Assembly: GCA_016841245.1 (NCBI GenBank)
Contig: JAENZN010000003.1
Coordinates: 1 to 64,000, forward strand
Direction: 5' to 3'
Length of the DNA stretch: 64,000 bases
Source of the DNA: Syntrophomonas sp.
GTDB lineage: Bacteria > Bacillota > Syntrophomonadia > Syntrophomonadales > Syntrophomonadaceae
Shown: in pieces, positions 6,563 to 41,449 of the stretch
How the letters are laid out: every line of letters begins with the position of its first letter
How positions within the stretch are numbered: position 1 is the first letter of the stretch
Translations under genes and position numbers: made by a program
The notes under the pieces: generated by a model
Database searches by the model: none
What the model was told of the DNA's origin: nothing
The model's input: the letters and a program-made list of their open reading frames with translations, nothing else

Positions 6563-7288
6563 ATGAAAGAACATTTAATACTGGATATTGATGGTACTCT
6601 GTTATTTGCCGATGAGAAGCCTGCTTCTATAGTGATTAAGGGCAGAAGGCGAAACAGCTATATGGCAAGAGAGACTATTCAACTCTTAAGGGAAATACAA
6701 GAATCATATAATATTGTTTTAGCTACCGGGAGAAGTTTGTTATCTGTTCAGTCAATATGTAAGCTCTTGGCAAAAGAAGGCGTATATTTTAAAGGGGCTG
6801 TGGCAGAAAATGGTGGTTTATATCAGAAAGATAATGAAGTCGAATACCTGGTAAGCCAGCAATGGATGCATCAGATCAAAGAGATAGCCCTGCATTTTGA
6901 TAGTATGGTGCAGTTGGAGTTTACTACTTGCCTGGCGCTTTTGCGGCCAACAAATTCCGATATTAATAAAGCGCTGGATTTATTTCAGGCGGCAAATTGC
7001 AGAGCGAATTTATTGAGAGATGGTAACAAGATATTTTTTCTATCTGGAAAAGTTAATAAGCGCAATGGCTTGACGTATTTATTGGGTGAAAAACAGCTTT
7101 CATTGGCTGCTGGTGTAGGGAATGATATCAATGATCTTGAATGGCTAAAAACGGTAAGGAAACCGGCAGCTCCAGCCTGTGCAGGAGAGAAGGTCTTGGA
7201 AACTGTGACTGCTGCAAATGGGATAATTTCTAAGAGTACTGGACATAAAGGAATAGCAGAATTACTTGCTGCTTTTATTTGTAAGTAA
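6563..7288 (+). CDS. HAD-superfamily phosphatase of the Ter module
   Basis: A 241-residue HAD hydrolase, Cof/IIB-like cap type. Motif I DIDGTL lies at residues 8-13, motif II ATGRS at about 55-59, and motif [16 protein letters not shown] at about 188-198. It probably removes a phosphate from the product of the neighbouring PRTases, which is the role proposed for HAD members of this module; the substrate is unknown. AGGAG overlaps the stop of the StiP gene and places the ATG at 6563. The terD gene follows within 25 bases. Confidence 0.85.
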
Positions 7289-7310
7289 TTTTGAGAAAGG
7301 AGAGTTAATA

Positions 7311-7892
7311 ATGGCTATTAGTTTACAAAAAGGGCAAAAAGTGGATTTAACCAAAGGACAGGCAGGATTAACCAAAGTTATGGTTGGATTGGGATGGGAT
7401 ACAAACAAGTATAGTGGTAGTCATGATTTCGATCTGGATGCTGCAGCTTTTGTACTGGGAGCATCCGGTAAGGTATCCAAAGATGAGGATTTTGTTTTTT
7501 ATAATAATCTAAGGCATAGCTCGGAAGCGGTTATACATATGGGAGACAATTTAACCGGAGAAGGTGAAGGTGATGATGAGCAGATTCTGGTTGATTTGAG
7601 CAAGCTGCCTGTAAGTATTGATAAAATTGCGTTTACGGTTACTATCCACGAGGCTGATGTGCGTGGGCAAAATTTTGGCCAGGTTTCCAATGCCTTTATA
7701 CGTATTGTTAACGATAGTAATGGAGAAGAAATTATACGTTATGATCTGGGAGAAGACTTTTCCATCGAAACTGCGCTGGTGGTAGGTGAACTTTATCGGC
7801 ACAGTGGAGAGTGGAAATTTAATGCTATCGGAAGCGGATTCCAGGGAGGATTAAGATCGTTGTGCCTAAACTTTGGGGTTAATGTTTCTTAG
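7311..7892 (+). CDS. terD: TerD-family calcium-binding stress protein 1
   Basis: A 193-residue TerD protein. It begins [15 protein letters not shown], then has GLGWDTNKY, the acidic [10 protein letters not shown] strand and [15 protein letters not shown], which holds the acidic residues that bind calcium in solved TerD structures. TerD proteins are cytosolic or membrane-peripheral and are linked to tellurite, oxidative and cell-envelope stress. The ATG at 7311 is chosen over an upstream in-frame start because GAAAGGAG lies at good spacing and the family begins with this peptide. It lies between the HAD gene and the calcium ATPase. Confidence 0.93.
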
Positions 7893-7990
7893 AACAAAAT
7901 TTGATGCTCAAAGCAAATCACAAGATAAAAAAAGTCGTACTTTTCCAAATAATCTAAAGCTGGAATAATGCGGGAGAGGAAAAAATTATA

Positions 7991-10591
7991 ATGCTCAAAC
8001 TAAACCAGATAACCGATATGGTAGGAGATAAAGGCCTTGAATCTTCGCAGGTTAAAGAATTAAGACAAAAATATGGCATTAACCGAATGACTCCTCCTAT
8101 TAGAGAGTCGATATTGAAACAATACTTAAAGAACTTTGATGATCCGATCATAAAGATACTTATGGTTGCTGTAGTTGTCTCTGCAATAATAGCAGCAATG
8201 CAGGGAACGGGCTTGTTGGATACAATTGCGATTATTTTAGCAGTTATGCTTGCTACCGGTATTTCATTTGTAAATGAATATCGTAGCAGCAAAGAATTTG
8301 ATGTTCTTAATGCGCAACGTGATGAAATGGCCGTGAAACTCATACGCAATGGTCATCCCTGTACTGTGCCTTCCAGGGAGGTTGTGGTAGGAGACCTGGT
8401 AATACTTGAAGCAGGAGATGCCATACCGGCAGATGGATGGCTGCTCTCCTCAGATGATATGCATGTAGATGAATCGGCCTTTACAGGTGAAAGTGAACCG
8501 ATGCTGAAAAAAGTGGCTGACCAGGTTTGCAAGGGGTCTTTTCTTACCGCTGGTAAAGGAAGAGTACTGGTTGGAGGTGTGGGAGATCATACCAAGATGG
8601 GAGCTATTGCGGCATCCCTGGGGATGGACCACAGTATTCCAACTCCGTTGGAGCAGAAACTTGAAGCTTTAGCCCAATTAATAAGCAAGTTCGGTTATGT
8701 TATGGCTATTGGTATTTCTGTTGCACTTTTTATCAAAGGTATGTTTACCGGTGAAGTGACTGGATTTAATATGGATACATTTAGTAATGTACTTAATTAT
8801 TTTATGCTATCTGTAGTAATTATTGTAGTGGCAGTACCCGAAGGCTTACCTATGAGTGTTGCCTTATCACTTTCATTGGCAATGCGGAAGATGACCAAGG
8901 CCAATAGTCTGGTCAGAAAAATGATTGCCTGTGAAACCATAGGTTCTGCAACTACCATATGCACAGATAAAACAGGTACATTGACCAAAAACCAGATGGA
9001 AGTAGTGGAAAGTTCTATTGATAAACTGAAACTACCGGAAAGGATTCCGGAAAGCAGTTCCGAGTGGCTAACCTTAATTGCAGCCATAAACAGTACGGCA
9101 TATCTGGAAGAACGTGATGGTAAAACGCTGGTTATTGGTAATTCCACCGAAGGTGCTCTTTTGCACTGGTTGAAAAATTGCGAAATTGATTATAACACGA
9201 TAAGACAGGATAGCTCTATTGTCAAACAATTTCTTTTTGACGGCACCAGAAAAAGAATGTCTACTATTGTGGAAATTGATGAGCGAAGGTGGATGCTGGT
9301 AAAAGGTGCTCCTGAAATCGTTGCGTCCCTTTGCGATAGTCGAGTAGATCTTTCCGGCACCTATAAACTGGCTGTACGTGCTATGCGTACTTTGGGGTTT
9401 GCTCATCGGGAAATCATCGATGATGATGAGAGTGAATCCAAGCTGACATGGGATGGTTATGTAGGCATAAGAGATCATCTGCGCGAAGATGTTCCTAATT
9501 CGATTCATTACTGCCAGAACGCCGGGATATCTGTGAGAATGGTTACCGGTGATAATCTGGAAACTGCCAAGGCTATTGCTAAAGAATCCGGCATTTTGAA
9601 TGGTGGAATAAGTATGAGCGGGCAGGAGTTTAGAGCATTGTCCGATGAGAAGCTGGAAAAGATTGCGTTTGACATAGAAGTTCTTGCTCGGGCTGAACCT
9701 ATGGACAAATTGAGGCTGGTTCAAGCTTTACAGAAAGATGGACAAGTTGTTGCGGTAACAGGAGATGGAACCAATGATGCACCTGCACTTAAACATGCAG
9801 ATGTTGGCTTGTCTATGGGAAAATCCGGTACCGAGGTGGCTAGAGAAGCCAGCTCCATTATTCTCTTGGATGATTCCTTTCCAACAATAACAAATGCTGT
9901 GTGGTGGGGGAGGGCTTTATATGAAAATATCCAGAGATTTTTGCAATTTCAGCTCACTATAAACTTTGGAGCATGTTTTATTGCCTTTTTAGCCCCGTTG
10001 TTTGGATATCCGTCACCCTTTAACATTATCCAATTACTATGGATAAACTTAATAATGGATACACTGGCTGCTATAGCTCTCTGTTCAGAAGCTCCTCATA
10101 AGGGGTTGCTTAATAGACCACCGATACCGCGTGGTGAAAATATAATTACCCCATATATGTGGCGTTGCATAATAGTAACCGGATTATTTTATATCGCCGT
10201 TGCTCTTATTAATATGAAAACTGCTTTTCTGGGAGGTTCAACTCCGTCTGAACAAAGTACGGTATTTTTCGCCTGGTTTGTTATAGCTCAGATATGGAAT
10301 GGGATAAACTGTCGGGCAGTTAATGGGCAAATGCCTTCTTTTTTCAGCGGAAACCCAACCTTTTTTGGCATAATGGGTATAATTGCCGTAATTCAGATAC
10401 TGATGGTGCAGTTCGGTGGAGATGTGTTTGGAACTGTTCCCCTTTCCCTGGAATTGTGGGGCAGGGTGTTTCTCTATTCGGCTTCAATTTTAGTGATTGG
10501 CTTTTTACTGCGGATTACTGCTCGAAGCCGGGAGATTAATGAACAAGTAAACGAAGCGACAAATGCAGAAAGCAGAAAGCTTAGCGCGTGA
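7991..10591 (+). CDS. P-type (type IIB-like) calcium-translocating ATPase
   Basis: An 866-residue cation pump that exports Ca2+ from the cytosol using ATP. Visible motifs are TGES of the actuator domain (about residue 164), the phosphorylation site CTDKTGTLTKNQ with Asp326, the hinge TGDGTNDAPA, PEGLP in transmembrane helix 4, and NLIMDTLAA in helix 6, the pattern of PMCA-type calcium ATPases. Length is normal for bacterial members without a calmodulin tail. It is embedded between terD genes in the same direction, 98 bases after terD1. Since TerD proteins bind calcium, I infer that the pump sets the calcium level they sense or buffer. TerC, the usual membrane partner, is not in the window. 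Confidence 0.92.
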   Translation: MLKLNQITDMVGDKGLESSQVKELRQKYGINRMTPPIRESILKQYLKNFDDPIIKILMVAVVVSAIIAAMQGTGLLDTIAIILAVMLATGISFVNEYRSSKEFDVLNAQRDEMAVKLIRNGHPCTVPSREVVVGDLVILEAGDAIPADGWLLSSDDMHVDESAFTGESEPMLKKVADQVCKGSFLTAGKGRVLVGGVGDHTKMGAIAASLGMDHSIPTPLEQKLEALAQLISKFGYVMAIGISVALFIKGMFTGEVTGFNMDTFSNVLNYFMLSVVIIVVAVPEGLPMSVALSLSLAMRKMTKANSLVRKMIACETIGSATTICTDKTGTLTKNQMEVVESSIDKLKLPERIPESSSEWLTLIAAINSTAYLEERDGKTLVIGNSTEGALLHWLKNCEIDYNTIRQDSSIVKQFLFDGTRKRMSTIVEIDERRWMLVKGAPEIVASLCDSRVDLSGTYKLAVRAMRTLGFAHREIIDDDESESKLTWDGYVGIRDHLREDVPNSIHYCQNAGISVRMVTGDNLETAKAIAKESGILNGGISMSGQEFRALSDEKLEKIAFDIEVLARAEPMDKLRLVQALQKDGQVVAVTGDGTNDAPALKHADVGLSMGKSGTEVAREASSIILLDDSFPTITNAVWWGRALYENIQRFLQFQLTINFGACFIAFLAPLFGYPSPFNIIQLLWINLIMDTLAAIALCSEAPHKGLLNRPPIPRGENIITPYMWRCIIVTGLFYIAVALINMKTAFLGGSTPSEQSTVFFAWFVIAQIWNGINCRAVNGQMPSFFSGNPTFFGIMGIIAVIQILMVQFGGDVFGTVPLSLELWGRVFLYSASILVIGFLLRITARSREINEQVNEATNAESRKLSA

Positions 10592-10632
10592 GTTCATACC
10601 CTCAAATATCTATTGTGAAAGGATAGTTATGG

Positions 10633-10728
10633 ATGCATAGTAAAAGCCATTCGGGCAGGATTTTTTTAGGCGGAAGCCTTGTCCTTCTAGGGTTAATAAT
10701 GTACATAGCGGCCAAGTTGGGGTCATAA
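10633..10728 (+). CDS. Small membrane peptide, 31 residues
   Basis: A short gene in the 266-base gap between the calcium ATPase and terD2. It has an AAAGGA ribosome binding site about 9 bases before its ATG and encodes one strongly hydrophobic helix (GGSLVLLGLIMYIAAKLG) after a short polar start. It resembles the small single-helix peptides often found beside transporters, but I cannot place it in a family. Context suggests a partner of the pump or of TerD; this is inference. Confidence 0.45.
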   Translation: MHSKSHSGRIFLGGSLVLLGLIMYIAAKLGS

Positions 10729-10857
10729 ATGCTTTAAGCAGTTTATACCCAAAATACAGTTTGAATGCGGATTATAAGTGTATTGTAGAGGAAGTAGAAG
10801 AATTAATTAAGTTTAAAGCTTTTTCTTGAACAGGTATCAATAAGGAGGGATTTTTTA

Positions 10858-11472
10858 ATGTCAGTTACATTACAAAAAGGACAAAAGGTAGATTTGACTA
10901 AAGGCAATAAAGGGCTTAGCACTATAATGGTAGGTCTGGGATGGGATGAAGTCGATAAAGGCAGAAAAAAGGGGTTTGGCCTTTTAGGCGGTTTAGGTGG
11001 TGGCAAGGCAGCCGATATAGATTGTGATGCTTCTGTGCTAATGCTGGATGCAAATTCTAAGTTGAAGGGCAAAAAGAATGTCATATACTTTGGCAATTTA
11101 AAGAGTAGTAATGGTAGTATAAAACATATGGGCGATAATCTTACGGGTGCCGGTGAGGGAGATGATGAACAAATATGGGTTGACGTTAATAAGATACCCG
11201 AAGATGTACATCGTTTAGTGTTTGTGGTTAACATCTATAATTGTAAGAACCGCCGACAGGATTTTGGAATGATTGAGAATGCATTTATCAGGATAGTAAA
11301 CAGTACTTCTAACCAGGAACTGCTTAAATTTAATCTTAGCGATAATTATTCGGGGAAAACAGCCCTTATTGCAGGAGAGGTTTACCGTTATAATGGCGAA
11401 TGGAAATTTGCAGCTATTGGTGAAGGAACGACTGATATATCATTGGATGAAATTGCAAAAAGATATGTTTAG
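10858..11472 (+). CDS. terD: TerD-family protein 2 with glycine-rich insert
   Basis: A 204-residue TerD paralogue. Compared with its two neighbours it has an insert right after GLGWDE, a basic, glycine-rich loop of about 15 residues ([18 protein letters not shown]), before the [10 protein letters not shown] strand. The calcium-binding segment [15 protein letters not shown] is kept. AAGGAGGG precedes the ATG at 10858. It is followed by terD3 after 41 bases. The loop sits next to the calcium-binding face and could change partner or membrane contacts. Such divergent TerD copies are common in ter clusters. Confidence 0.88.
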
Positions 11473-11513
11473 CTTGTATTTTGAAATTAGTGGTACATAA
11501 AGGAGGTTTTAAA

Positions 11514-12095
11514 ATGGCAGTAAGTTTACAGAAAGGTCAAAAAGTTGATTTGACCAAAACAAATCCCGGTTTAACTACTGTTATGGTTGGACTTGGCTGG
11601 GATACCAATAAATATGACGGGGGTCAAGACTTTGACTTGGATGCATCTGTTTTTTTGTTGGGTGAAAATAGTAAAGTAACCAGTGATGCAGATTTTATTT
11701 TCTATAATAACCTTCAGGGAGGTAACGGTTCGGTAGTTCACATGGGTGATAACCTTACCGGTGAAGGCGAAGGCGACGACGAACAGGTTAAGGTGAATCT
11801 GGTAAATATACCCGCTTCTATCCATAAAGTAAGTTTTACCGTAACTATTCATGATGCTGAATCCAGGGGCCAAAATTTTGGACAAGTATCCAATGCTTTC
11901 ATTAGGATTTTTAATGAAAGTAATAATGAAGAATTAATAAGGTATGATTTAGGGGAAGATTTTAGTATCGAAACTGCGGTAGTAGTTGGGGAACTTTATC
12001 GCCATAATAACGAGTGGAAATTCAACGCTATTGGCAGCGGGTTCCAGGGAGGATTGGCTGCTCTGGGTACAAATTTTGGGGTAAATTTGGGATAA
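11514..12095 (+). CDS. terD: TerD-family calcium-binding stress protein 3
   Basis: A 193-residue TerD protein very close to terD1 (same [19 protein letters not shown] and [13 protein letters not shown] motifs, and the same [12 protein letters not shown] near the C-terminus), pointing to a local duplication. The ATG at 11514 is preceded by AAAGGAGG at good spacing; an in-frame TTG 33 bases earlier is less likely. It is the last gene of the island and is followed 25 bases later by a strong terminator. Confidence 0.92.
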
Positions 12096-12159: not shown

Positions 12160-12408
12160 TCACATGGACGCAATCTAACGGGTGAGTGAGTACATGGCTT
12201 AAGGCAGGGGTATCGGTCATAAGACCGAATCACCCTTGCGGATACAGGCTGAGGAAAGCCGGCGGCAAACCTTTGGTCTAGCGAACAGAAACCATATCAA
12301 GCATATACCTGTGGGTGAGATTGCTAGACAAATCCAAGCCCAATAGCTATATGGAACAGGTACGATATAGGTGGAGGGAAATATTGCATTCTTACACCTA
12401 GGAAGGTC
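12160..12408. other. Non-coding stretch, possible intron or structured RNA remnant
   Basis: About 250 bases with no gene, unlike the AT-rich gaps around it in composition. It contains local hairpins such as TCGGTCATAAGACCGA (12211-12226) and several purine-rich single-stranded-looking blocks. The style resembles domain I of bacterial group II introns, but I cannot align it to a class, find domain V, or find a reverse transcriptase. The recombinase fragment follows directly. Confidence 0.2.
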
Positions 12409-13781: not shown

Positions 13782-14142
13782 CACCCGGAAGTCCAGAAGT
13801 TTGTTTTATGATCGGCAGCAGATATTGAAGAATAGTAGAAAACAAGACCAAACCTATAGCGCGGTTTATAAAATGTTGCTATTGGTTTTCTCTATTTAGA
13901 GTAATAATTGTGGCTTCGAATGATTGTAGCTTCAGAAATAAGGGCTGGTCTCTTCCGATCTTAGCAGAACTAAAATACCTTGAAAAATATGTTATGTTAT
14001 GCTATGTTATGTCATGAAATGCTATGTTATGTAATTTTAAACCATTATAGTATTGGTTTAGCTTCCTTTTAATTAGTTGCGTTATGTTAATAGGATTGGG
14101 GTTGAATAAGCCCTTTCCAGCTTTCAAACGGGGTGTTACATC
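13782..14142. other. Intergenic leader before the first ABC operon
   Basis: No gene seen. It contains the 12-mer CTCTTCCGATCT at 13950-13961, identical to the end of common Illumina adapters, and a tandem TTATG/CTATG repeat at 13989-14033. The promoter of the ABC-radical SAM operon should lie here, but I cannot place it with confidence. Confidence 0.4.
13989..14033. repeat. Imperfect 5-bp tandem repeat (TTATG/CTATG)
   Basis: Nine consecutive five-base units of the type (T/C/G)(T/C/A)ATG in about 45 bases, ending 110 bases before the ABC ATPase start. Such arrays can vary in length by slippage. A role in regulation is only a possibility. Confidence 0.6.
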
Positions 14143-14862
14143 TTGTTTAGTCTACATGATATCGGACTTGACTATGGCCTGCTCAACGTCCTGGACCGTT
14201 TTAATCTGAGCTGCGAAAAACAGCAGTTCGTCTGCCTCTTCGGCCCTTCAGGAGTCGGCAAAACAAGCATTCTAAATATCCTGGCCCGCCTTGTCAAACC
14301 ACAATCAGGCCAGGTTGTCTGTAATAGCAAAAGATTGGCCTATGTCTTTCAGGACCCCAGGTTGGTTCCCTGGCTCAACGTTGAACAAAACCTGCAGCTT
14401 GGGCTGTATGCCTCTGGCCAAAGCGCTAAACAAAGGAGTTCAGCAGCAAACAGACTCCTGCCGGTACTGGGCCTGGATGGTTTTGCCAAATACTATCCCG
14501 GACAATTAAGCGGCGGCATGAAACAAAGGGTTTCGCTCGGCCGTGCTTTTGCTATAAAGCCAGATTTACTCTTGTTGGATGAACCGTTTTCCAGCCTGGA
14601 TGCAGGTATCAAGAATGAAATGCAAGATCTGCTGGCTTCACTGCGACAATTGCATGCGTGTACAACAGTAATGGTTACCCACGACGAAAAGGAGGCGATA
14701 AAGCTAAGCGACCGCGTAGTGGTTCTCAATGGCCGACCGTGTCGAATGGTTATAGACATCTTTCCCGGCCCGCAAAAGGTTACGGACAACCTCTATGCGC
14801 AGGATCTTGCAACGTCATTGCTGACCGCGCTAAATAACAACGATTCCCTGGTAAGTTGCTAA
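14143..14862 (+). CDS. NitT/TauT-type ABC importer, ATPase subunit
   Basis: A 239-residue ATP-binding subunit of the nitrate/sulfonate/taurine type. Walker A is GPSGVGKT (about residues 33-40), the signature is QLSGGMKQR (about 121-129), Walker B is DLLLLDEPF with the switch histidine in VTHDE. The start is a TTG at 14143 without a strong ribosome binding site; no better start is available without losing the first strand. It is the first gene of an operon that continues with the binding lipoprotein, the permease, a methyltransferase and a radical SAM fusion. Sequence alone does not tell the substrate. Confidence 0.9.
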   Translation: MFSLHDIGLDYGLLNVLDRFNLSCEKQQFVCLFGPSGVGKTSILNILARLVKPQSGQVVCNSKRLAYVFQDPRLVPWLNVEQNLQLGLYASGQSAKQRSSAANRLLPVLGLDGFAKYYPGQLSGGMKQRVSLGRAFAIKPDLLLLDEPFSSLDAGIKNEMQDLLASLRQLHACTTVMVTHDEKEAIKLSDRVVVLNGRPCRMVIDIFPGPQKVTDNLYAQDLATSLLTALNNNDSLVSC

Positions 14863-14912
14863 TACTCTAGGAAGCAACCAGGATTTATTCAGGAAACGGA
14901 GGCACATATAAT

Positions 14913-15920
14913 ATGAAAACAAAGGTATTGGCCTTTTTGATCTGTCTGGCCATGCTGCTATGTATGGCAGGATGTTCAAAAACTGACACAACAATAAAAG
15001 ACTCCTCTGAAGAACCGGTAAAACTTTCAGACCTAAAACTTGCGTTAGGAACCGCACCCGGCCCACCTACCTACCCACTGGCATATATGGCTGAGCAGAA
15101 CAGCAACTTAACCCTTAAACCCTGGCAAAGTGGAGATCAGCTTCTAGCCATGCTGAGCTCCAAAGAAGTGCAGATCAGCAGTTGTCCTGTTACCACCGCC
15201 CTGATTGCTTACAATAAGGGTTTAGGCGTGCAGGTTCTGGATGTCGCGGTATGGGGGATGCTCTATGTTATGACCACGGAATCGGATGTGAAGTCCCTGC
15301 AGGATCTTAAAGGAAAAGAAGTCGTGGTATCCGGGCAAGGCGGCCTTCACGACCTGATATTCCTGCATCTTTTGAAAATGAACAATATTGATCCCCAGAA
15401 AGACCTTACCCTTACATACCTTGATATGTCCCAGGCGTCTGCCATGCTGGCCAGCGGACGGATCAAATATGCCGTACTTAATGAGCCCAATTCCAGTGTC
15501 GCGGCTCTAAATGCCAAGAAGAACGGGCTCAATCTAAACCGGGTGCTGGATCTGACCGATGAATGGCATAAACTGCCCGGACAAGAGAATGTCCGCCTGC
15601 CCATGGGTACTATCGTAATTGTTAACGGTACAAATGTGACAGATGAACAAATCGACGTCTTCGAAAAAGGCTTTGTTGAAGCAGCGGAATGGGTAAATTC
15701 GCATCCTGACGAAATCGGTCCTATGGTTGAAAAATATGTTCCCTGGATGAAGGCACAAGCGGTTACCGAATCTATAAAATATGCTCGTTTGCAGCCCAAT
15801 CATGCCGCTGACTGCCAGGCTGAAGTTGAGGCATTCTTCCAAGAATTGAGCAAAGACACCGATCCTAAAGCTTTTGGAGGCAAAATGCCTGATGACGGAT
15901 TCTATTACCAGGCTCAATAA
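14913..15920 (+). CDS. ABC importer solute-binding lipoprotein (NMT1/SsuA-like)
   Basis: A 335-residue extracellular binding protein held by a lipid anchor. The signal peptide ends in the lipobox LLCMAGC, with the acylated Cys at residue 21. The body has the NMT1/SsuA fold pattern: VKLSDLKLALGTAPGPPTYPLAYM, then KSLQDLKGKEVVVSGQGG and the second-lobe SGRIKYAVLNEP. Substrates of this class include sulfonates, nitrate and pyrimidine precursors; in this operon a cofactor-related compound is possible, but that is inference. The permease gene begins inside its 3' end. Confidence 0.88.
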   Translation: MKTKVLAFLICLAMLLCMAGCSKTDTTIKDSSEEPVKLSDLKLALGTAPGPPTYPLAYMAEQNSNLTLKPWQSGDQLLAMLSSKEVQISSCPVTTALIAYNKGLGVQVLDVAVWGMLYVMTTESDVKSLQDLKGKEVVVSGQGGLHDLIFLHLLKMNNIDPQKDLTLTYLDMSQASAMLASGRIKYAVLNEPNSSVAALNAKKNGLNLNRVLDLTDEWHKLPGQENVRLPMGTIVIVNGTNVTDEQIDVFEKGFVEAAEWVNSHPDEIGPMVEKYVPWMKAQAVTESIKYARLQPNHAADCQAEVEAFFQELSKDTDPKAFGGKMPDDGFYYQAQ

Positions 15921-16665
15921 GCATTATTACTATGGGTTCGGCATCCTGCTGCTGTTGATGCTCTGGCAGTTGCTGTCGGAGCAGTACCCTCAGGTGCTGG
16001 TCCCGTCTCCATATGAAACCTGGCAAGGCCTGGTTAATATATGGACAAGTGGCGTGCTGACCGACAATCTCGGAATCAGTTTCAAACGACAGTTATTAGG
16101 CATGAGCCTGGGCCTGATGATGGGCCTAACCACTGGTATGCTGTCGGGTTGGTTTACCAGGCTGGAACTGCTAATGCAGCCTCTGGTCAGTCTCTTGCTG
16201 GCCATGCCGCCGATAATTTTGGCTGTTATGGCAATGATCTGGTTTGGTATGGGTACGCAGATGACGATATTCCTGGTGGCACTGCTGGTTTTCCCGGTTA
16301 TGCACACCAATACCGTTGAGGGCTTCAAATCTATCGATCCTTCATTAATCCAAATGAGCAAGGTTTATCGTTTGCCTCTACCTCTGGCTATAAGCAAAAT
16401 ATACATCCCGGGCATGCTCCATAGCCTGATAGCAGGGTTCTCAATGGGTGTGGCATCCTCCATTCGCCTTACCGTAATGGCAGAATTGTTGGGAGCCCGG
16501 GAAGGCATGGGACAGCAGATAGCGATTTCCCGATCCTACATGGAGACCGAGCAACTGTTTGCCTGGGTACTCGTACTGCTTGTTATTCTGGCCAGCCTGG
16601 AATTCGTGTTGATCCGGCCTCTGCACCGCTGGTCCACCCGCGGGATGACCGATACCGGGTCTTGA
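15892..16665 (+). CDS. ABC importer permease (SsuC/TauC-like)
   Basis: About 257 residues with roughly six transmembrane helices and the BPD_transp_1 coupling region (AMSKVYRLPLP-like segment around SKVYRLPLPLAISKIYIPG). The ATG at 15892 is chosen because GGAGG lies at 15876-15880; an in-frame TTG at 15874 lies within that site. The gene overlaps the lipoprotein gene by 29 bases, so the two are translationally coupled. Confidence 0.88.
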   Translation: MTDSITRLNKHYYYGFGILLLLMLWQLLSEQYPQVLVPSPYETWQGLVNIWTSGVLTDNLGISFKRQLLGMSLGLMMGLTTGMLSGWFTRLELLMQPLVSLLLAMPPIILAVMAMIWFGMGTQMTIFLVALLVFPVMHTNTVEGFKSIDPSLIQMSKVYRLPLPLAISKIYIPGMLHSLIAGFSMGVASSIRLTVMAELLGAREGMGQQIAISRSYMETEQLFAWVLVLLVILASLEFVLIRPLHRWSTRGMTDTGS

Positions 16666-16714
16666 TGGCTCCACGTTTAAATCAAGTCCATTTTCAAGAC
16701 GGAGGGTAAAAGCT

Positions 16715-17332
16715 ATGTCAAGTAAAGCAGAAGAATTTGATCTCCTGGTCAGGGAAGTCTTTGCGCCCTGTTATCCAGTTGTCGCTAATCAAATTTTTGA
16801 AAAAACCGGCGTTTGCGAGGGTTTATGCCTCGATCTGGGTTGTGGAAATGGCTACCTCGGCCTGGCTATTGCTGAGGCCACTAAGATGGAGGTTTGTCTG
16901 TTAGATAATGACCCGGAAATGCTGTCAATTTGTGAACGTAACATAATTGCCCGCCAGTTAGGCGAGCGAGTTCGAACACAGCCGGGGGATGTCCATCGAA
17001 TACCCTTGCCCGGCCAATCGATTCAACTGGTGGTAAGCCGGGGTTCGGTATTTTTCTGGGAAGATCCGGTCCAGGCTTTTCACCAGATATACCAGGTTCT
17101 GGCCCCCCAAGGAATGGCCTGCATCGGTGGTGGATTCGGCACAGTAGAAATAAAGCAGCAGATTGACCGCGAAATGGAGAAACGCAATCCCGGCTGGCAC
17201 GAGCATCTACGCGACAGGATAGGCCCGGGTTGTACTGATAAATATCCCCCATTGCTGGCTGCTGCCGGTATCGACCATTTTGAAATCGACCATGGCCCGA
17301 CCGGGCTGTGGATATTGTTCGGGAGGGCATAA
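16715..17332 (+). CDS. Class I SAM-dependent methyltransferase
   Basis: A 205-residue cytosolic methyltransferase. Motif I is LDLGCGNGYLG (about residues 36-46), motif II LLDNDPEML, and the post-motif region VVSRGSVFFWEDP follows the UbiE/COQ5-like arrangement. The substrate cannot be named. GACGGAGGG precedes the ATG. It lies 49 bases after the permease and ends 2 bases before the radical SAM gene, so it belongs to the same operon and may act on the product or ligand handled by the radical SAM enzyme. Confidence 0.85.
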   Translation: MSSKAEEFDLLVREVFAPCYPVVANQIFEKTGVCEGLCLDLGCGNGYLGLAIAEATKMEVCLLDNDPEMLSICERNIIARQLGERVRTQPGDVHRIPLPGQSIQLVVSRGSVFFWEDPVQAFHQIYQVLAPQGMACIGGGFGTVEIKQQIDREMEKRNPGWHEHLRDRIGPGCTDKYPPLLAAAGIDHFEIDHGPTGLWILFGRA

Positions 17333-17334
17333 TT

Positions 17335-19149
17335 ATGCAATGCGATATATGCGCTATCGGCTGCGAGGTATTTGAAGGAGGCCAGGGCATTTGCGGCAAA
17401 TACACCCTGCAAGCCGGCCATATGGTAGAAATTTACCCGGACCGCTACTTGATGATCTGCCCGATCTCGATTGAAACCATGCCCATGCTGCATTTCTATC
17501 CTGGAGGCAGGTTTTTGCAGATCAGCACCACGGGCTGCAACCTGGATTGTCCGGGCTGCGTTTCCACCGTGCTGGTGAAAGAAATGAGCCACAACAGCGC
17601 TGCCATGCAGCACATGAGCCCTGAACAGATTGTGGCCGAAGCAGTCGCAAATAACTGTCTGGGAATAGCCTTCCTTATGAATGACCCGTTGGCTTCATTC
17701 CACACCTTTTTACGGGTGGCTAAATGCGCCCGGGAACATCATCTGCTGGTGGGCTGCTCCAGCAATGGCTATTTCAGCGAGGCTTCGCTGGAACAAATAG
17801 TCCCCTATCTTGACTTTATCAATATAGGCTTGAAAGGTTTTGATGATGCTTCGTATCGCCGCTGCGGTGCTCCTTTAATTCAACCCGTTTTGGAAAATCT
17901 GAGGAAGCTGCATGAGCGTGGGGTGCATATAGAAGTATCATGCATGTCTGACAAGAATAACAAGCAGGCACTTCTGAACCTGGCCCACTATCTAGCTGAT
18001 ATTTCGGGTGACCTGCCACTTTTGATCATGCGTTACATACCATTAGAACAGGCTTCCCCCGATTTAGAAATATCAATCCGCGAATCCGAGGAAGTGCAAA
18101 AAGAAATTCAGGGCATATTGAAGTATGTTTACCTTTTTAATTCTCCGGGCTGCGATGGACTCAATAGCTTATGTCCCTCCTGCAAAACTATGCTATATCA
18201 ACGGGATTTCTATGGTCCGATGGGAGCTAAGCTGCGAACCAGGCCGGACGAGCTGCTGGAAAGCAATGTCTGCCCTGTTTGCAGCTGCAGCATTAACTTC
18301 CGGGGAACGTCCCGAAGAGAAGCCTACCAGGAAAAAGCCTTCCAGGGTGGCTATCCCTTCACCCGGGCCCTGGAAATGCTGGAAGCCATGCTGCTGGCTA
18401 TGGGAATGCATGATCGACGCCAGGTAAGTGTAGTATGGGAAGACATCTTGGTCAATCAACGCCTGGAAGAACTGCATCACGACATCCAACGGCTGCCGTC
18501 TTATCTGGATACATTGTTGCATTGCGGCGAAATAGCCGGCTGTCAGGAACAGGCCAGGGAACTGGCCAACTATATCCGCAGCAGAATGGAGATTGTAAAG
18601 GAAGTCAAAAACGAATCCGGATTCGGATCCAGGCCCCGGGTTTATTATGCTATGGGCAAGCCCCTGTTTTGCATTAAGGGCGAACGGATGGAAAATCAAC
18701 TGGTGGAAGCAGCGGGAGGACACAGTGTAAACCGAGAACTTGAGATTGACGGACGACCTGGCGCACGAATCAGTGCCGAACAGTTGATGGCCCTGAATCC
18801 GGAAGTCATATTTATTTCCGCCTTCATATCATCCAGTGTCGATAACTTTATAACAGCCTGCAGGGAGGATGACATAGATGTTGAAGCTCTGAGAACCGGA
18901 CGCATATACTGCCATCCGGCTGCGGGTTGGGATTTCGGCAGCCCCCGATGGATCTTGGGATTGATGCATATTAGCAACATGCTTTTCCCCAATTCAAATC
19001 GTTTCGATATAATGGCTGAAGCAAAAGAATTCTATCACCGTTTCTACGATCTGGAATTCGATCCTGTTTCCATCAACCGTTCGTTTGGCAAACCTCATAT
19101 TCAATGGCAGTGGCAGCAATCCGCCGATCTTATCACAGGAAACAAATAG
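17335..19149 (+). CDS. AmrS-like radical SAM enzyme fused to BtuF-type domain
   Basis: A 604-residue two-part protein without signal peptide. The N-terminus has a four-cysteine knot (Cys3, 6, 10, 20; ending GICGKY), then the radical SAM motif CNLDCPGC (Cys68, 72, 75), as in the AmmeMemoRadiSam enzyme AmrS, including the HFYPGG segment before it. A later cysteine cluster (LCPSC ... NVCPVCSC, about residues 280-320) matches the zinc-ribbon tail of AmrS. Residues about 425-604 look like a TroA/BtuF periplasmic-binding fold (AAGGHSVNRE, EQLMALNPEVIF, GRIYCHPA, SPRWILGL), but here it is cytosolic. The ATG at 17335 follows GGGAGGG; an upstream GTG is less likely. Function is unknown; I infer chemistry on, or delivery of, a metal- or corrinoid-like ligand. 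Confidence 0.78.
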   Translation: MQCDICAIGCEVFEGGQGICGKYTLQAGHMVEIYPDRYLMICPISIETMPMLHFYPGGRFLQISTTGCNLDCPGCVSTVLVKEMSHNSAAMQHMSPEQIVAEAVANNCLGIAFLMNDPLASFHTFLRVAKCAREHHLLVGCSSNGYFSEASLEQIVPYLDFINIGLKGFDDASYRRCGAPLIQPVLENLRKLHERGVHIEVSCMSDKNNKQALLNLAHYLADISGDLPLLIMRYIPLEQASPDLEISIRESEEVQKEIQGILKYVYLFNSPGCDGLNSLCPSCKTMLYQRDFYGPMGAKLRTRPDELLESNVCPVCSCSINFRGTSRREAYQEKAFQGGYPFTRALEMLEAMLLAMGMHDRRQVSVVWEDILVNQRLEELHHDIQRLPSYLDTLLHCGEIAGCQEQARELANYIRSRMEIVKEVKNESGFGSRPRVYYAMGKPLFCIKGERMENQLVEAAGGHSVNRELEIDGRPGARISAEQLMALNPEVIFISAFISSSVDNFITACREDDIDVEALRTGRIYCHPAAGWDFGSPRWILGLMHISNMLFPNSNRFDIMAEAKEFYHRFYDLEFDPVSINRSFGKPHIQWQWQQSADLITGNK

Positions 19150-19317: not shown

Positions 19318-19839
19318 TTATTTATATACTTTTACCGCCATAGTTTTGAACACAGTATATAGTTCGGTTCCTTTTTCAAGCCCCATTTCAGCTGAAGACT
19401 TTTTAGTTATTAGGGCAACAATGGGAATACCGATATCAATGACCACTTTTGCATGATTTCCATCTTTGATAATGTTGGCCACTAAACCTTTATGGACATT
19501 TCTTGCACTGCTCGAAAATGTCCCTTTGCTTAAGATGATATCTTCTGGACGGATAGAAACTTTTACATATCCTTCTAGTTCAGTATTAACAATTATATTT
19601 ACTGGCCCAATTTCGGCTATAGTTTCGTCGTCGCCCTGAGCTATTATCGCCTCATAAATATTTTCAGTACCTTTGGATTTTTGCAGATAGATTTCAAACT
19701 GGTTGTCAGATATCCGAAGATGCTTTCCTATATGATGAGCATCGAGATCTCCGCGTTTAATCATTTCATATACAGTACCTTTAGCTATCCTGAGCTTTTC
19801 TGCAATTTCAGCCGGCGTATATAACTTATCTTTATTCAT
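19318..19839 (-). CDS. HTH-TOBE regulator, molybdate/tungstate type
   Basis: A 173-residue protein with an excisionase-type DNA-binding domain at residues 5-55 (LYTPAEIAEKLRIAKGTVYEMI, then IGKHLRIS) and a TOBE/Mop-like domain at about 95-173 (SIRPEDIILSKG, SSARNVHKGLVANII, VIDIGIPIVALIT). This layout is known from regulators that bind molybdate or tungstate. It converges with the radical SAM operon, so it could regulate that operon or an importer elsewhere. The start ATG at 19839 has GAGGTGA just upstream. Confidence 0.82.
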   Translation of the reverse strand: MNKDKLYTPAEIAEKLRIAKGTVYEMIKRGDLDAHHIGKHLRISDNQFEIYLQKSKGTENIYEAIIAQGDDETIAEIGPVNIIVNTELEGYVKVSIRPEDIILSKGTFSSSARNVHKGLVANIIKDGNHAKVVIDIGIPIVALITKKSSAEMGLEKGTELYTVFKTMAVKVYK

Positions 19840-22960: not shown

Positions 22961-23875
22961 CTAAGGAATGCCAAGAACAAAGTAAGTGGTGCAATCCTGC
23001 AGTATCGGATTTTCAAAAAAATCGGCGGCGCTTTTATGGCTAAACAGGGTGGCTGCACACGCCCCGCGCTCCTGCATATAGTACAGAACGGCGCACAGCG
23101 TCTCGGGTGAATCCAGGTTTTCATTGGGCATCCTTTTTATTCTTTCCAGGTCGTTATCAAGAATTGCTTTTTGGGTATCTTCATCCCTTATCTTTGCTTC
23201 TTCGACAGGCAGGCCATGCGAGAAATCTACGGAACCAACGACCAGACATTTTTTATTTTTAGCTATGCTGTTGAGCAGCAGGGCGATATTCTTTGACTGT
23301 TCCAGGGTTACCTGCCGGGTCAAAAGCATCGCAGCCACCTTTACATCAGGCAGGTAATACTTAATATATGGAACCAGGCTTGATACTGCATGGTCGTTTT
23401 GCAGAATGTCATCATTGATTCTGGCCTCCAGCGTTTTGCAGGCTATAATTTCAGAGACTGCATCCTCATCACAGTCAAGTGTCCCAAATTCAGTCTTCCA
23501 ACTGCAGGCAGTGGTGCTGATATTGGCCCCCTCACCCTGGTGATTAGGGCCTAATAGTATGACTGTATCGTATTTTTCCCCGGTTTGAGCTGCTGTTTTA
23601 AAGAATGATGCGATCAACTCCCCGGCCAGCAGATGGTGGGGGACCACCCCGGCGGAAAGCGTCTTGGCTCCATAGGTCTCTGCCCTTGCGGTATGGGCTG
23701 AAAAATCACCGGTCTCAAAATAAACGCAATCAAGCTGCTTTATATATCCTGTGCCGGTGGCAGTTGGAACTGTATCAGCCGGTAATTTACCGATCGGGGG
23801 TGAGCAGCCGGATACTGTGAGAAGGATCAGTACTGCCAATACAGCGGTTGTTTTTTTACTCACCGATCGTGACAT
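22961..23875 (-). CDS. MEMO-family (AmrB-like) lipoprotein
   Basis: A 304-residue protein of the MEMO/AmmeMemoRadiSam-B family. Family marks are AGVVPHHLLAG, ILLGPNHQG, NDHAVSSLVPYIKYYLPDVKV and VGSVDFSHG, which bring the metal-binding histidines together in MEMO structures. Unlike most family members, it has a signal peptide with lipobox TVSGC (Cys24), so it should sit outside the membrane. It overlaps the end of the alpha-2-macroglobulin gene by 20 bases and is read from the same message. Activity is unknown; a metal-dependent role on the cell surface is inferred. Confidence 0.85.
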   Translation of the reverse strand: MSRSVSKKTTAVLAVLILLTVSGCSPPIGKLPADTVPTATGTGYIKQLDCVYFETGDFSAHTARAETYGAKTLSAGVVPHHLLAGELIASFFKTAAQTGEKYDTVILLGPNHQGEGANISTTACSWKTEFGTLDCDEDAVSEIIACKTLEARINDDILQNDHAVSSLVPYIKYYLPDVKVAAMLLTRQVTLEQSKNIALLLNSIAKNKKCLVVGSVDFSHGLPVEEAKIRDEDTQKAILDNDLERIKRMPNENLDSPETLCAVLYYMQERGACAATLFSHKSAADFFENPILQDCTTYFVLGIP

Positions 23876-38768: not shown

Positions 38769-39791
38769 GTGAGTTTGTTGAAAAGGTCAGTAATAGTACT
38801 GTTGCTAATGCTGCTGATCGGCGGCACTATAATCGGGGGGTGCAGCAATAAGGAAACGAAAACCGCAGAGCTTATTCCGGTAAATCTAGTTGAAGTGGTA
38901 CACTCCATATTCTACGCTCCACAGTATGTAGCCATCAGCCAGGGCTACTTCATGGACGAGGGGTTGGATATTACGCTCACCACTGCGCAGGGTTCAGATA
39001 AGGTAATGACTGCTCTGCTTTCTGGTACGGGTGATATTGGCCTGGGCGGTTCAGAAGCACCAATCTATGTATATAATCAGGGACAGGAAGATTATGTCAT
39101 TAATTTCGCCCAGTTAACCCGGTGTGATGGTTCTTTCCTGGTTGGACGCCAAGCTGAACCTAATTTTAAATGGGAGGACCTGAAAGGTAAAACTATTATT
39201 GGCGGCAGACCTGGCGGGATGCCCGAAATGGTACTTGAGTACATTTTGAAAGATCACGGTTTAACACCAGGAAAAGACGTGCAGATCATAACTAATCTCC
39301 AATTTACCGCAACTGCAGGTGCTTTCAAGGGAGGAACAGGCGACTATGTAGCCCTGTTTGAGCCAACCGCAACTCTGCTGGAACAAGAAGGAGCCGGTCA
39401 TGTGGTTGCTTCTATCGGCAAGAGCAGCGGTGAAATTCCCTATACGGTGTTCATGGCCAGAAAGAGTCGAATCGAGAGAGATCCCGAGATGCTGCAGAAG
39501 TTTACCAATGCCATTTATCAAGGACAGATCTGGGTAGACCAGCATAGTTCACAGGAAATTGCCAGTGCTATTGCTTCTTTTTTCCCAGACACAGATATTG
39601 ATGGATTAACCAGAGTGGTCGAGCGCTATAAATCCCAGAATACCTGGAGTACTTCTCCGGTAATGAATGAAGAATCGTACCTGTTGGCACAGGAAATCAT
39701 GCAAATTGCCGGAGAGCTTAGCAATCCCGTAGAGCCCGCTGTTTTAATCAACCATCAATTTGCCGAACAGGCTATTTTAAAATCACCTTAG
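38769..39791 (+). CDS. ABC importer solute-binding lipoprotein (NMT1/SsuA-like), second system
   Basis: A 340-residue lipoprotein with lipobox IIGGC (Cys near residue 25). The NMT1/THI5-like pattern is clear: LVEVVHSIFYAPQYVAISQGYF, DEGLDITLT, then KGKTIIGGRPGGMPEM. It is the first gene of a three-gene importer with the ATPase and permease. The GTG at 38769 is taken because GGAGAGGGGA lies just before; a TTG 6 bases later is possible. I looked for a thiamine riboswitch upstream and found none, so thiamine-precursor uptake is not supported. Confidence 0.88.
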   Translation: MSLLKRSVIVLLLMLLIGGTIIGGCSNKETKTAELIPVNLVEVVHSIFYAPQYVAISQGYFMDEGLDITLTTAQGSDKVMTALLSGTGDIGLGGSEAPIYVYNQGQEDYVINFAQLTRCDGSFLVGRQAEPNFKWEDLKGKTIIGGRPGGMPEMVLEYILKDHGLTPGKDVQIITNLQFTATAGAFKGGTGDYVALFEPTATLLEQEGAGHVVASIGKSSGEIPYTVFMARKSRIERDPEMLQKFTNAIYQGQIWVDQHSSQEIASAIASFFPDTDIDGLTRVVERYKSQNTWSTSPVMNEESYLLAQEIMQIAGELSNPVEPAVLINHQFAEQAILKSP

Positions 39792-39903
39792 CATATCAGA
39801 AGTTTAGAGTAATTTATTAGCGGATGAGTCTGTCTAAACCAATTTTAATTTGAGGTGAGATATGCTGTGCTCCCCTCAAGACTCTTAGTGTGGGGGTGAT
39901 TCA

Positions 39904-40656
39904 ATGACTGCGTTTCAGGTCGAGCTCGACCATATTTCCATGACCTACCAGTCTCCTTCCGAAGAAACGGAAGCGATCTCAGATGTCAGCCTGGGTTTAA
40001 CGCAGGGTGAGTTTGTCTCCATCGTTGGTCCAAGTGGCTGTGGCAAATCGACCCTGCTGGATATCATCTGTGGTCTGGTAAAACCGACCCGGGGAAGCGT
40101 CCGGTTACAACGCCCAGCCGGTTACATGCTGCAGCGGGACTATTTGCTGGAATGGCGAACAATTCGGCAAAACTGCCTGCTGGGTCCGGAACTGCAGAAG
40201 CATAATATGAAGGAAGCCCGGACTTATGTGGACCACCTCCTGGAGACTTATGGCCTGGCGGAATTTGCAGACCATTATCCCCGGCAATTGTCCGGTGGGA
40301 TGCGTCAGCGTGCCGCGCTCATTCGAACCCTGGCTTTAAAACCCGATGTACTGCTGTTGGATGAACCATTCTCCGCCTTGGACTATCAGACCCGTCTGGC
40401 AGTAGTGGATGAAGTCTGGACCATTCTTCGCAAGGAAAATAAAACAGTTATTTTGGTTACTCATGATATTGCGGAGGCAATTTCAATGTCCGATCGGGTG
40501 GTCGTATTAAGCGCTCGACCGGCTCGGGTCAAAGTTATTTATCAGGTTAGGTTGTCCACAGCAGGTCTGCCCCTGCAGCGGCGTCAAGATGAAAACTTCC
40601 GCAAATATTTCGATGCTATCTGGAAGGAGTTGGACATTTATGTCAGCCTCGGCTAA
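39904..40656 (+). CDS. ABC importer ATPase, second NitT/TauT-type system
   Basis: A 250-residue ATP-binding subunit. Walker A is GPSGCGKS (about residues 40-47), the signature QLSGGMRQR, Walker B VLLLDEPF, and VTHDI carries the switch histidine. GGGGGTG precedes the ATG at 39904. The permease gene begins inside its 3' end with a 17-base overlap. Related to, but clearly different from, the ATPase at 14143. Confidence 0.9.
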   Translation: MTAFQVELDHISMTYQSPSEETEAISDVSLGLTQGEFVSIVGPSGCGKSTLLDIICGLVKPTRGSVRLQRPAGYMLQRDYLLEWRTIRQNCLLGPELQKHNMKEARTYVDHLLETYGLAEFADHYPRQLSGGMRQRAALIRTLALKPDVLLLDEPFSALDYQTRLAVVDEVWTILRKENKTVILVTHDIAEAISMSDRVVVLSARPARVKVIYQVRLSTAGLPLQRRQDENFRKYFDAIWKELDIYVSLG

Positions 40657-41449
40657 ACCATCGCTGGAGAGGAAGACCTACCTGCAAAAAATGCGCATCC
40701 ACAGGGTTGTGGTTTTATTGACTCAGCTCATGATTTTAATAGCCTTTCTTTTAATCTGGGAATTAGCTGCCAATGCCAGGTTTATCGATCCTTTCATCAC
40801 GTCCCAACCTTCTCGTGTGCTGGCTGCGATAATAAGGCTTCACCAAGATGGCTCTCTCTATTTGCATGTATGGGTGACCATTGTTGAAACCTTCTGGGGA
40901 TTCATCCTGGGGACAGGCGGAGGCTTTCTTTGCGCTGTTTTGCTCTGGTGGTCCCGTTTCTTGCATGAGATCAGCGAACCTTACCTGGTGGTCCTCAATG
41001 CCCTGCCCAAAGTTGCCCTGGGACCCTTATTGATTGTCTGGCTGGGAAATGGGTCAGCACCTATCATCGGCATGGCGCTCCTCATCTCTATTATCGTTAC
41101 GATCATAAGTTTGGTCAGCGGCTTTCAAGATGTGGATCCGGATAAGATCAAACTGTTATTATCATTCGGGGCTACGCGCCTGCAAATCTTCACCAAGGTC
41201 GTTCTTCCTTCGAGTCTGCCGACCTTAATTTCAACCCTTAAGGTAAGTGTAGGGCTCAGCCTGGTAGGGGTAATCATGGGAGAATTTCTGGTATCAAAAG
41301 CGGGGCTGGGATATTTGATCGTTTACGGCAGTCAGGTTTTTAAACTGGATCTAGTGATGCTCAGTATTATCATTCTGGCAGCAATGGCAGCAATTATCTA
41401 CTTCGGCGTCTCCTTTGTAGAAAAAAAGCTGCTTCGCTGGCAGAAATAA
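40640..41449 (+). CDS. ABC importer permease, second NitT/TauT-type system
   Basis: About 269 residues with six predicted helices and the BPD_transp_1 coupling segment (LLLSFGATRLQIFTKVVLP). The ATG at 40640 is preceded by AAGGAG and is preferred to in-frame starts further up inside the ATPase gene. It ends the importer operon; the convergent rph-like gene ends 18 bases later. Confidence 0.88.
   Translation: MSASAKPSLERKTYLQKMRIHRVVVLLTQLMILIAFLLIWELAANARFIDPFITSQPSRVLAAIIRLHQDGSLYLHVWVTIVETFWGFILGTGGGFLCAVLLWWSRFLHEISEPYLVVLNALPKVALGPLLIVWLGNGSAPIIGMALLISIIVTIISLVSGFQDVDPDKIKLLLSFGATRLQIFTKVVLPSSLPTLISTLKVSVGLSLVGVIMGEFLVSKAGLGYLIVYGSQVFKLDLVMLSIIILAAMAAIIYFGVSFVEKKLLRWQK

Follow-up and report, generated by a model that had tools for sequence, protein, structure and literature searches.

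A radical SAM enzyme carrying one lobe of a substrate-binding protein in a Syntrophomonas operon, and the probable link of its family to molybdenum and tungsten

Why would a radical enzyme carry part of a substrate-binding protein, and what does the operon that encodes it import? These questions are raised by five genes in a 64,000-nucleotide stretch of DNA from Syntrophomonas sp. (Syntrophomonadaceae; assembly GCA_016841245.1, contig JAENZN010000003.1, positions 1 to 64,000), which we refer to as the window. The genes encode the ATPase, lipoprotein and permease of an ATP-binding cassette (ABC) importer, a methyltransferase, and a fusion of an AmrS-like radical S-adenosylmethionine (SAM) enzyme to part of a TroA-type substrate-binding protein (SBP). 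The family to which this fusion belongs is found in strict anaerobes and is very probably linked to molybdenum and tungsten. To the reading that the window operon is a variant of a module with which strict anaerobes acquire and process these metals, including the full mechanism set out below, we assign a probability of about one half.

The operon is real. Its first two genes are 50 bp apart and the second and third overlap; gaps of about 50 bp and 2 bp follow. The products match the Pfam families ABC_tran, NMT1, BPD_transp_1, Methyltransf_25/11, Radical_SAM and Peripla_BP_2. The open reading frame (ORF) coordinates and these matches bear out an earlier sequence-only reading of this DNA, which had described five genes in one direction with overlaps or short gaps. 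A second genome of the family (locus L038, the same as L052) has all five genes, about 82-87% identical, so their arrangement is not due to chance. In this relative, the methyltransferase and fusion are separated by an additional gene matching DUF364 (PF04016).

The fusion starts at ATG 17335, and the AmrS-like radical SAM enzyme spans residues 1 to about 325. Its AmrS-type cysteines (C3, C6, C10, C20, C68, C72, C75, C280, C283, C313 and C316) are invariant in 35 homologues, and many other residues in this alignment are conserved across loci with every type of importer. In a Foldseek search with the predicted structure, the radical SAM fold separately matched pyruvate formate-lyase activating enzyme. 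The AmrS model TIGR04337 was the best NCBIfam match, but at 123.4 bits the fusion falls well short of its cut-off of 220 bits, as do the relative in locus L054 (121.1 bits) and an unfused sister (173.7 bits). Thus, the AmrS-like cysteine clusters noted earlier are present and invariant, while membership of the AmrS family itself fails at the score cut-off. The fusion shares with AmrS the N-terminal cysteine cluster, the CX3CX2C core and the C-terminal cysteine pairs; it differs in its lower score, its separate clade, its extra C-terminal lobe and its molybdenum/tungsten neighbourhood. In the phylogeny, fused and unfused genes group together to the exclusion of 15 canonical AmrS sequences, with support of 1.0 (FastTree) and 100 (UFBoot). 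Support for the fused genes alone as one clade is only 0.665 and 29, respectively.

The C-terminal part of the fusion resembles only part of an SBP. Its PF01497 (Peripla_BP_2) score of 30.1 bits exceeds the gathering threshold of 27.5 bits, with the match confined to profile positions 94-233 of 235. A profile of this part aligned the PDB chains 4ovk, 4pag, 4hn9 and 3psa (MolA/HI_1472, E-value of 5e-10) only from about residue 112-150 onwards. An AlphaFold model built with 35 sequences (predicted local distance difference test score, pLDDT, of 90.5; predicted template modelling score, pTM, of 0.90) places the SBP backbone helix at residues 404-427, and Foldseek retrieved these SBPs too, matching about half of every target. 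The two-lobed architecture of SBPs was not found, as the fusion has the backbone helix and C-lobe only, and none of the 35 homologues has an N-terminal hydrophobic segment that could serve as an export signal. Because of these partial matches and the missing hydrophobic segment, we predict that the fusion is a cytosolic enzyme bearing one SBP lobe, with the N-lobe missing. Invariant residues of the C-lobe are K442, R451, E453, N454, R474, W532, P537 and W539. The pTM suggests that in the model the lobe is held in a fixed position against the rest of the protein, and the radical SAM half may form the other side of a binding cleft. The sequence-only reading had seen here a cytosolic TroA/BtuF-like ligand binder, and had regarded a lack of similarity to binding-protein folds in structure prediction as fatal to its proposal. 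Sequence and predicted structure do show an SBP C-lobe; it is, however, one lobe and not a complete binder. It is homologous to MolA and its relatives (4hn9, 4ovk, 4pag), that is, to the binding proteins of MolBC-A (HI1470-72) and related TroA-type importers, from which the fusion differs in its predicted cytosolic location, the missing N-lobe and the enzyme domain. The importer encoded in the window operon likewise belongs to a different family from these.

To our knowledge, uptake of molybdenum and tungsten is treated as transport of the oxyanion followed by standard synthesis of the molybdenum cofactor (Moco), with no radical chemistry in between. The family is nevertheless associated with riboswitches for Moco and the tungsten cofactor (Tuco). 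Using Rfam's RF01055 model, we scanned 39 fusion loci and found such riboswitches in nine, where the number of these riboswitches in each genome leads one to expect 0.95. In 200,000 simulations a count of nine was never reached, although the loci are related, so that this probability is only indicative. By strand and order, the riboswitch is the apparent leader of the fusion run in six loci (L053, L059, L062, L081, L083 and L087); in L083 and L087, about 650 bases lie between the last upstream gene and the fusion. The alignments show a P3 stem in L053, L059, L062 and L081 and none in L083 and L087. Riboswitch RNAs that contain P3 go with Moco and those that lack it with Tuco (PMC2408646). Moco-II RNAs were located in L079. 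Unfused sister genes show the same association, with RF01055 upstream of eight of the ten examined. One of these is in the window's own genome (L037), where an unfused AmrS-like gene sits behind a Moco/Tuco riboswitch, together with genes for BtuF, BtuC and BtuD and one labelled X. For seven canonical AmrS genes from the same genomes, no RF01055 match was listed on their contigs.

The gene content of the loci points in the same direction. We scanned 84,980 species genomes with exact short patterns, which gives a lower bound, and identified at least 41 fusion-related loci. All lineages are strict anaerobes: Syntrophomonadaceae, Desulfosporosinus, Pelotomaculum, Clostridium, Sporomusa, Acetobacterium, Anaerovorax, Dethiobacter, several Desulfobacterota, Geobacter, Desulfuromonas and Treponema. 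No viral relatives were found, and plasmids yielded partial matches but not the full fusion. We counted partners in the same gene run across 40 intact loci, the window included. The methyltransferase is the steadiest (25/40), and its gene frequently overlaps that of the fusion, by 22-31 bp. Importer and lipoprotein genes are the commonest neighbours after it, with BtuF-type proteins in 22, ABC ATPases in 20 and BtuC in 14 of the 40 loci. In Clostridium thailandense, the fusion, methyltransferase, ModA, ModB and an ATPase form a single run, and this ModA exceeds its family cut-off. MoeA, molybdenum oxidoreductases, XdhC-like and TupA-like proteins, an HTH-PBP regulator and DUF364 genes also recur near fusions, some of these labels being derived from sequence clusters and reading instead of a family model per gene. 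Gram-negative loci add TonB-dependent receptors; these suggest import of a chelate, or at least of something bigger than the free oxyanion. DUF364 has published genome-context links to transport of tungstate, molybdate, vanadium and iron, though its function is itself only predicted (PMC2954201). It recurs beside fusions and within the operon of the nearest relative, but not in the window operon.

An importer of the NMT1/SsuC type accompanies the fusion in only two of the 40 loci, the window and its nearest relative; the usual importer is of the BtuCDF type. The importer of the window looks like a replacement, since, in the midpoint-rooted fusion tree, this pair branches within fusions that have other partners. 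Relatives of the radical SAM gene usually adjoin an importer and the methyltransferase; had they never lain beside the importer, the sequence-only reading would have been refuted. The co-occurrence that it envisaged is found, even if its type of importer is not the usual one. All three window importer proteins fall into the broad SsuABC/TauABC/NMT1 family and reach Pfam gathering scores, and none reaches a substrate-specific NCBIfam cut-off. The top NCBIfam models of the ATPase are oxyanion-, taurine- and phosphonate-type ATPases, each under its cut-off, and the permease likewise stays under those of SaoP (NF040733) and SsuC. The lipoprotein has a hydrophobic N-terminus with a lipobox-like LCMAGC and is closest among solved structures to 3hn0, a 'nitrate transport protein' (E-value of 1.5e-11). 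By Pfam, NCBIfam and PDB comparison, it matches NMT1/SsuA and is not of the ModA, TupA or WtpA family. Together with the lack of an equivalog match, the radical SAM fusion in the operon sets this importer apart from its broad family. The permease likely starts at ATG 15892, which is preceded by GGAGG, and not at TTG 15874, the mechanical ORF start. A second lipoprotein/ATPase/permease set, SsuABC-like by its N-terminal sequences, lies at 38769-41449 (+) of the window.

Table 1. Coordinates of the operon, its proteins and adjacent elements in the window.
Feature	Position	Strand	Basis
Tandem TATGT/TATGTTATG array, possible operator	13988..14032	.	about 110 bp upstream of first gene
Five-gene operon	14143-19149	+	all ORFs intact, co-directional
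ABC transporter ATPase, SsuB/TauB type, TTG start	14143..14862	+	PF00005 E=1.1e-27
Substrate-binding lipoprotein, NMT1/SsuA type	14913..15920	+	PF16868/PF09084/PF13379 over gathering score
Permease, SsuC type	15892..16665	+	PF00528 E=3.5e-16
Class I SAM-dependent methyltransferase	16715..17332	+	PF13649 E=2.3e-17; 3dlc_A E=1.5e-45
Fusion protein, 604 residues: AmrS-like radical SAM, helical linker, TroA-type backbone helix and C-lobe	17335..19149	+	PF04055 E=6.5e-16, PF01497 E=4.2e-7
CX3CX2C radical SAM cluster motif (C68, C72, C75)	17536..17559	+	invariant in 35 homologues
Helical segment in place of the SBP N-lobe, residues 339-401	18349..18537	+	AlphaFold helices 339-355, 361-373, 377-383, 387-401
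TroA backbone helix and C-lobe, residues 404-580	18544..19074	+	AlphaFold, Foldseek, profile vs PDB (4ovk, 4pag, 4hn9, 3psa)
HTH_17-TOBE protein, candidate molybdate/tungstate sensor, convergent with operon	19318..19839	-	PF12728, PF03459

In the mechanism that we favour, the ABC importer would bring in molybdenum or tungsten, probably as an oxyanion or chelate, with the NMT1/SsuABC-type importer of the window standing in for the usual BtuCDF type. The cytosolic fusion may then bind the metal species, or its carrier ligand, between the SBP C-lobe and the part that replaces the N-lobe. The radical SAM half would act on the bound ligand by 5'-deoxyadenosyl radical chemistry, and the adjacent methyltransferase would make or finish the same small molecule. 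As a result, the metal might be freed from an imported chelate, or a ligand for it built, feeding Moco/Tuco synthesis. We infer both the place of ligand binding and the reaction. The earlier proposal, that the fusion captures the imported compound or a metal complex of it and then modifies it, fits as regards action on an imported metal complex, but not in its assumption of a complete binding domain.

By homology and neighbourhood, and thus indirectly, the window operon would handle the same metal as the rest of the family. No riboswitch was detected upstream of the operon, not even with a permissive threshold, and its importer belongs to no known molybdenum/tungsten type, so that the metal assignment depends on the fusion, the methyltransferase and the helix-turn-helix (HTH)-TOBE neighbour. 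These two observations weigh against our reading, and so do several from the wider family. The kinship of the loci means that the simulated probability overstates their independence, and 30 of the 39 fusion loci have no RF01055 match within reach, some of them being short contigs. The lobe has closer relatives in the PDB than MolA, and there is no match of ligand-binding residues to a known molybdate site. Of the upstream elements that had been thought informative, riboswitches favour molybdenum or tungsten for the family and lend no support to corrinoids; the window operon itself has no riboswitch upstream.

The main rival explanation, which we consider unlikely but worth serious attention, is that the fusion and methyltransferase tailor the pterin or another part of Moco/Tuco, and that the importer merely shares their regulon. 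Moco/Tuco riboswitches are thought to sense the finished cofactor (PMC2408646). TrmO-family, TrmO-FmdE, MoeA and XdhC-like proteins among the neighbours would suit such a role, as would the persistence of the fusion and methyltransferase while importer types change. Set against this are the rank of importer and lipoprotein genes directly behind the methyltransferase among the neighbours and the outer-membrane receptors that join them in Gram-negatives. Moreover, many anaerobes make Moco/Tuco without the fusion.

For the window and its nearest relative, recruitment of the fusion to another ligand (sulfonate, nitrate-like or pyrimidine) through NMT1/SsuABC, independent of molybdenum and tungsten, is quite improbable. 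An importer type unlike that of all other loci, an SBP closest to nitrate/sulfonate-type binding proteins and the missing upstream riboswitch would be explained by it. Yet the fusion and methyltransferase are kept, as is the DUF364-matching gene in the relative, the TOBE-HTH gene adjoins the window operon, and the conservation of many fusion residues spans every importer type. Salvage of corrinoids or other tetrapyrroles, with BtuCDF-type import followed by remodelling by the radical SAM enzyme and methyltransferase, is very improbable. In its favour are BtuCDF-type transport, TonB receptors (the best match of one, below the cut-off, being TonB-B12), a run with NifD/K/H-like genes at one locus and a DUF364 pocket similar to tetrapyrrole sites (PMC2954201). 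However, no cobalamin riboswitch was found at the scanned fusion loci, although each of the 14 genomes tested contains such riboswitches, frequently in large numbers. What these loci do have is Moco/Tuco riboswitches and ModABC, and TroA-type binding proteins (MolA) also serve molybdate.

Returning to the metal acquisition and processing that we favour, a bolder form of it would be a distinct anaerobic molybdenum/tungsten pathway, in which a metal complex is bound between the receptor lobe and the catalytic barrel and altered on its arrival in the cytosol, together with the methyltransferase and partner proteins. We hold this to be possible and put it forward tentatively; if true, it would mean metallophore-like or new cofactor chemistry for these metals. 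Acetogens, syntrophs, sulfate reducers and metal reducers depend on molybdenum and tungsten enzymes such as formate dehydrogenases. That a fusion and methyltransferase are linked to the corresponding riboswitches in these organisms suggests a missing step, either a metal chelate or a modified cofactor. It would also provide a first functional handle on DUF364 and on an uncharacterised clade of AmrS-like radical SAM proteins, and shows the reuse of a binding-protein lobe inside an enzyme. The component families are known; for the architecture and its molybdenum/tungsten setting, we found no description in the openly licensed literature searched. Searches of this literature also returned no paper on DUF364 with radical SAM or on the Moco riboswitch with an ABC transporter and radical SAM, and only unrelated work on AmmeMemoRadiSam with radical SAM. 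Nor did they turn up a pathway with the gene set of the window, in agreement with the sequence-only reading. ModABC directly follows the fusion and methyltransferase in C. thailandense and TupA-like or ModA-like genes lie near other fusions, although we know of no requirement of ModABC, TupABC or WtpABC importers for a radical SAM enzyme or methyltransferase.

The surroundings of the operon hold further elements. The HTH_17-TOBE protein partially matches the tail of WtpC (93.9 bits), and its Mop domain scores 52.4 bits against a cut-off of 55. The window's genome (3.9 Mb) has 16 RF01055 matches over the cut-off. On the operon's contig, about 60 kb further downstream, such riboswitches accompany a homologue of the methyltransferase, a leaderless SBP, HypB-like GTPases and a BtuCDF set. 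Upstream of the operon, the TATGT/TATGTTATG array is a possible operator; in the nearest relative, the region aligned with it carries a GTTATGTTATATAATGTTATAC stretch that is related but has diverged. Near matches to its 19-base pattern are essentially confined to this site in the genome, and we rejected it as a regulon-wide operator. A protein of the Memo family (PF01875), lipoprotein-like at its N-terminus, is encoded at 22961-23875 (-), 4-5 kb from an AmrS-like gene. In the AmmeMemoRadiSam set, it is Memo proteins that partner AmrS.

Among the related loci, L069 encodes a protein in which TrmO_N and FmdE domains are joined (10971-11732), and TrmO-family proteins related to it also occur near other fusions and unfused sisters. 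Leaderless SBP_bac_6-type proteins were observed in molybdenum/tungsten neighbourhoods of L062 (14800-15666), L090 (13322-14191), L091 (17697-18587) and L116 (16958-17851), and are further examples of an SBP fold that lacks an export signal. Gene X (L037, 8067-9203, -) is conserved beside unfused AmrS-like genes and matched no Pfam or NCBIfam family, nor did it match any PDB entry at a significant level. In L117 it stands in a row of molybdenum oxidoreductase, XdhC-like, TrmO-family and DUF364-like genes, riboswitch, BtuF, radical SAM, X, BtuC and ATPase. In Desulfosporosinus fructosivorans (L056, 5200-8909), NifD/K-like and NifH-like genes lie within the fusion run, and a second set downstream of it resembles Fe-only nitrogenase genes. 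Elsewhere in the window, upstream of the operon region, a Group II intron match (D1-D4-3, RF02001) covers 12237-12390 (+), and three TerD-like proteins, recognised by eye from their translations, surround a calcium-type P-ATPase at 7266-12095 (+).

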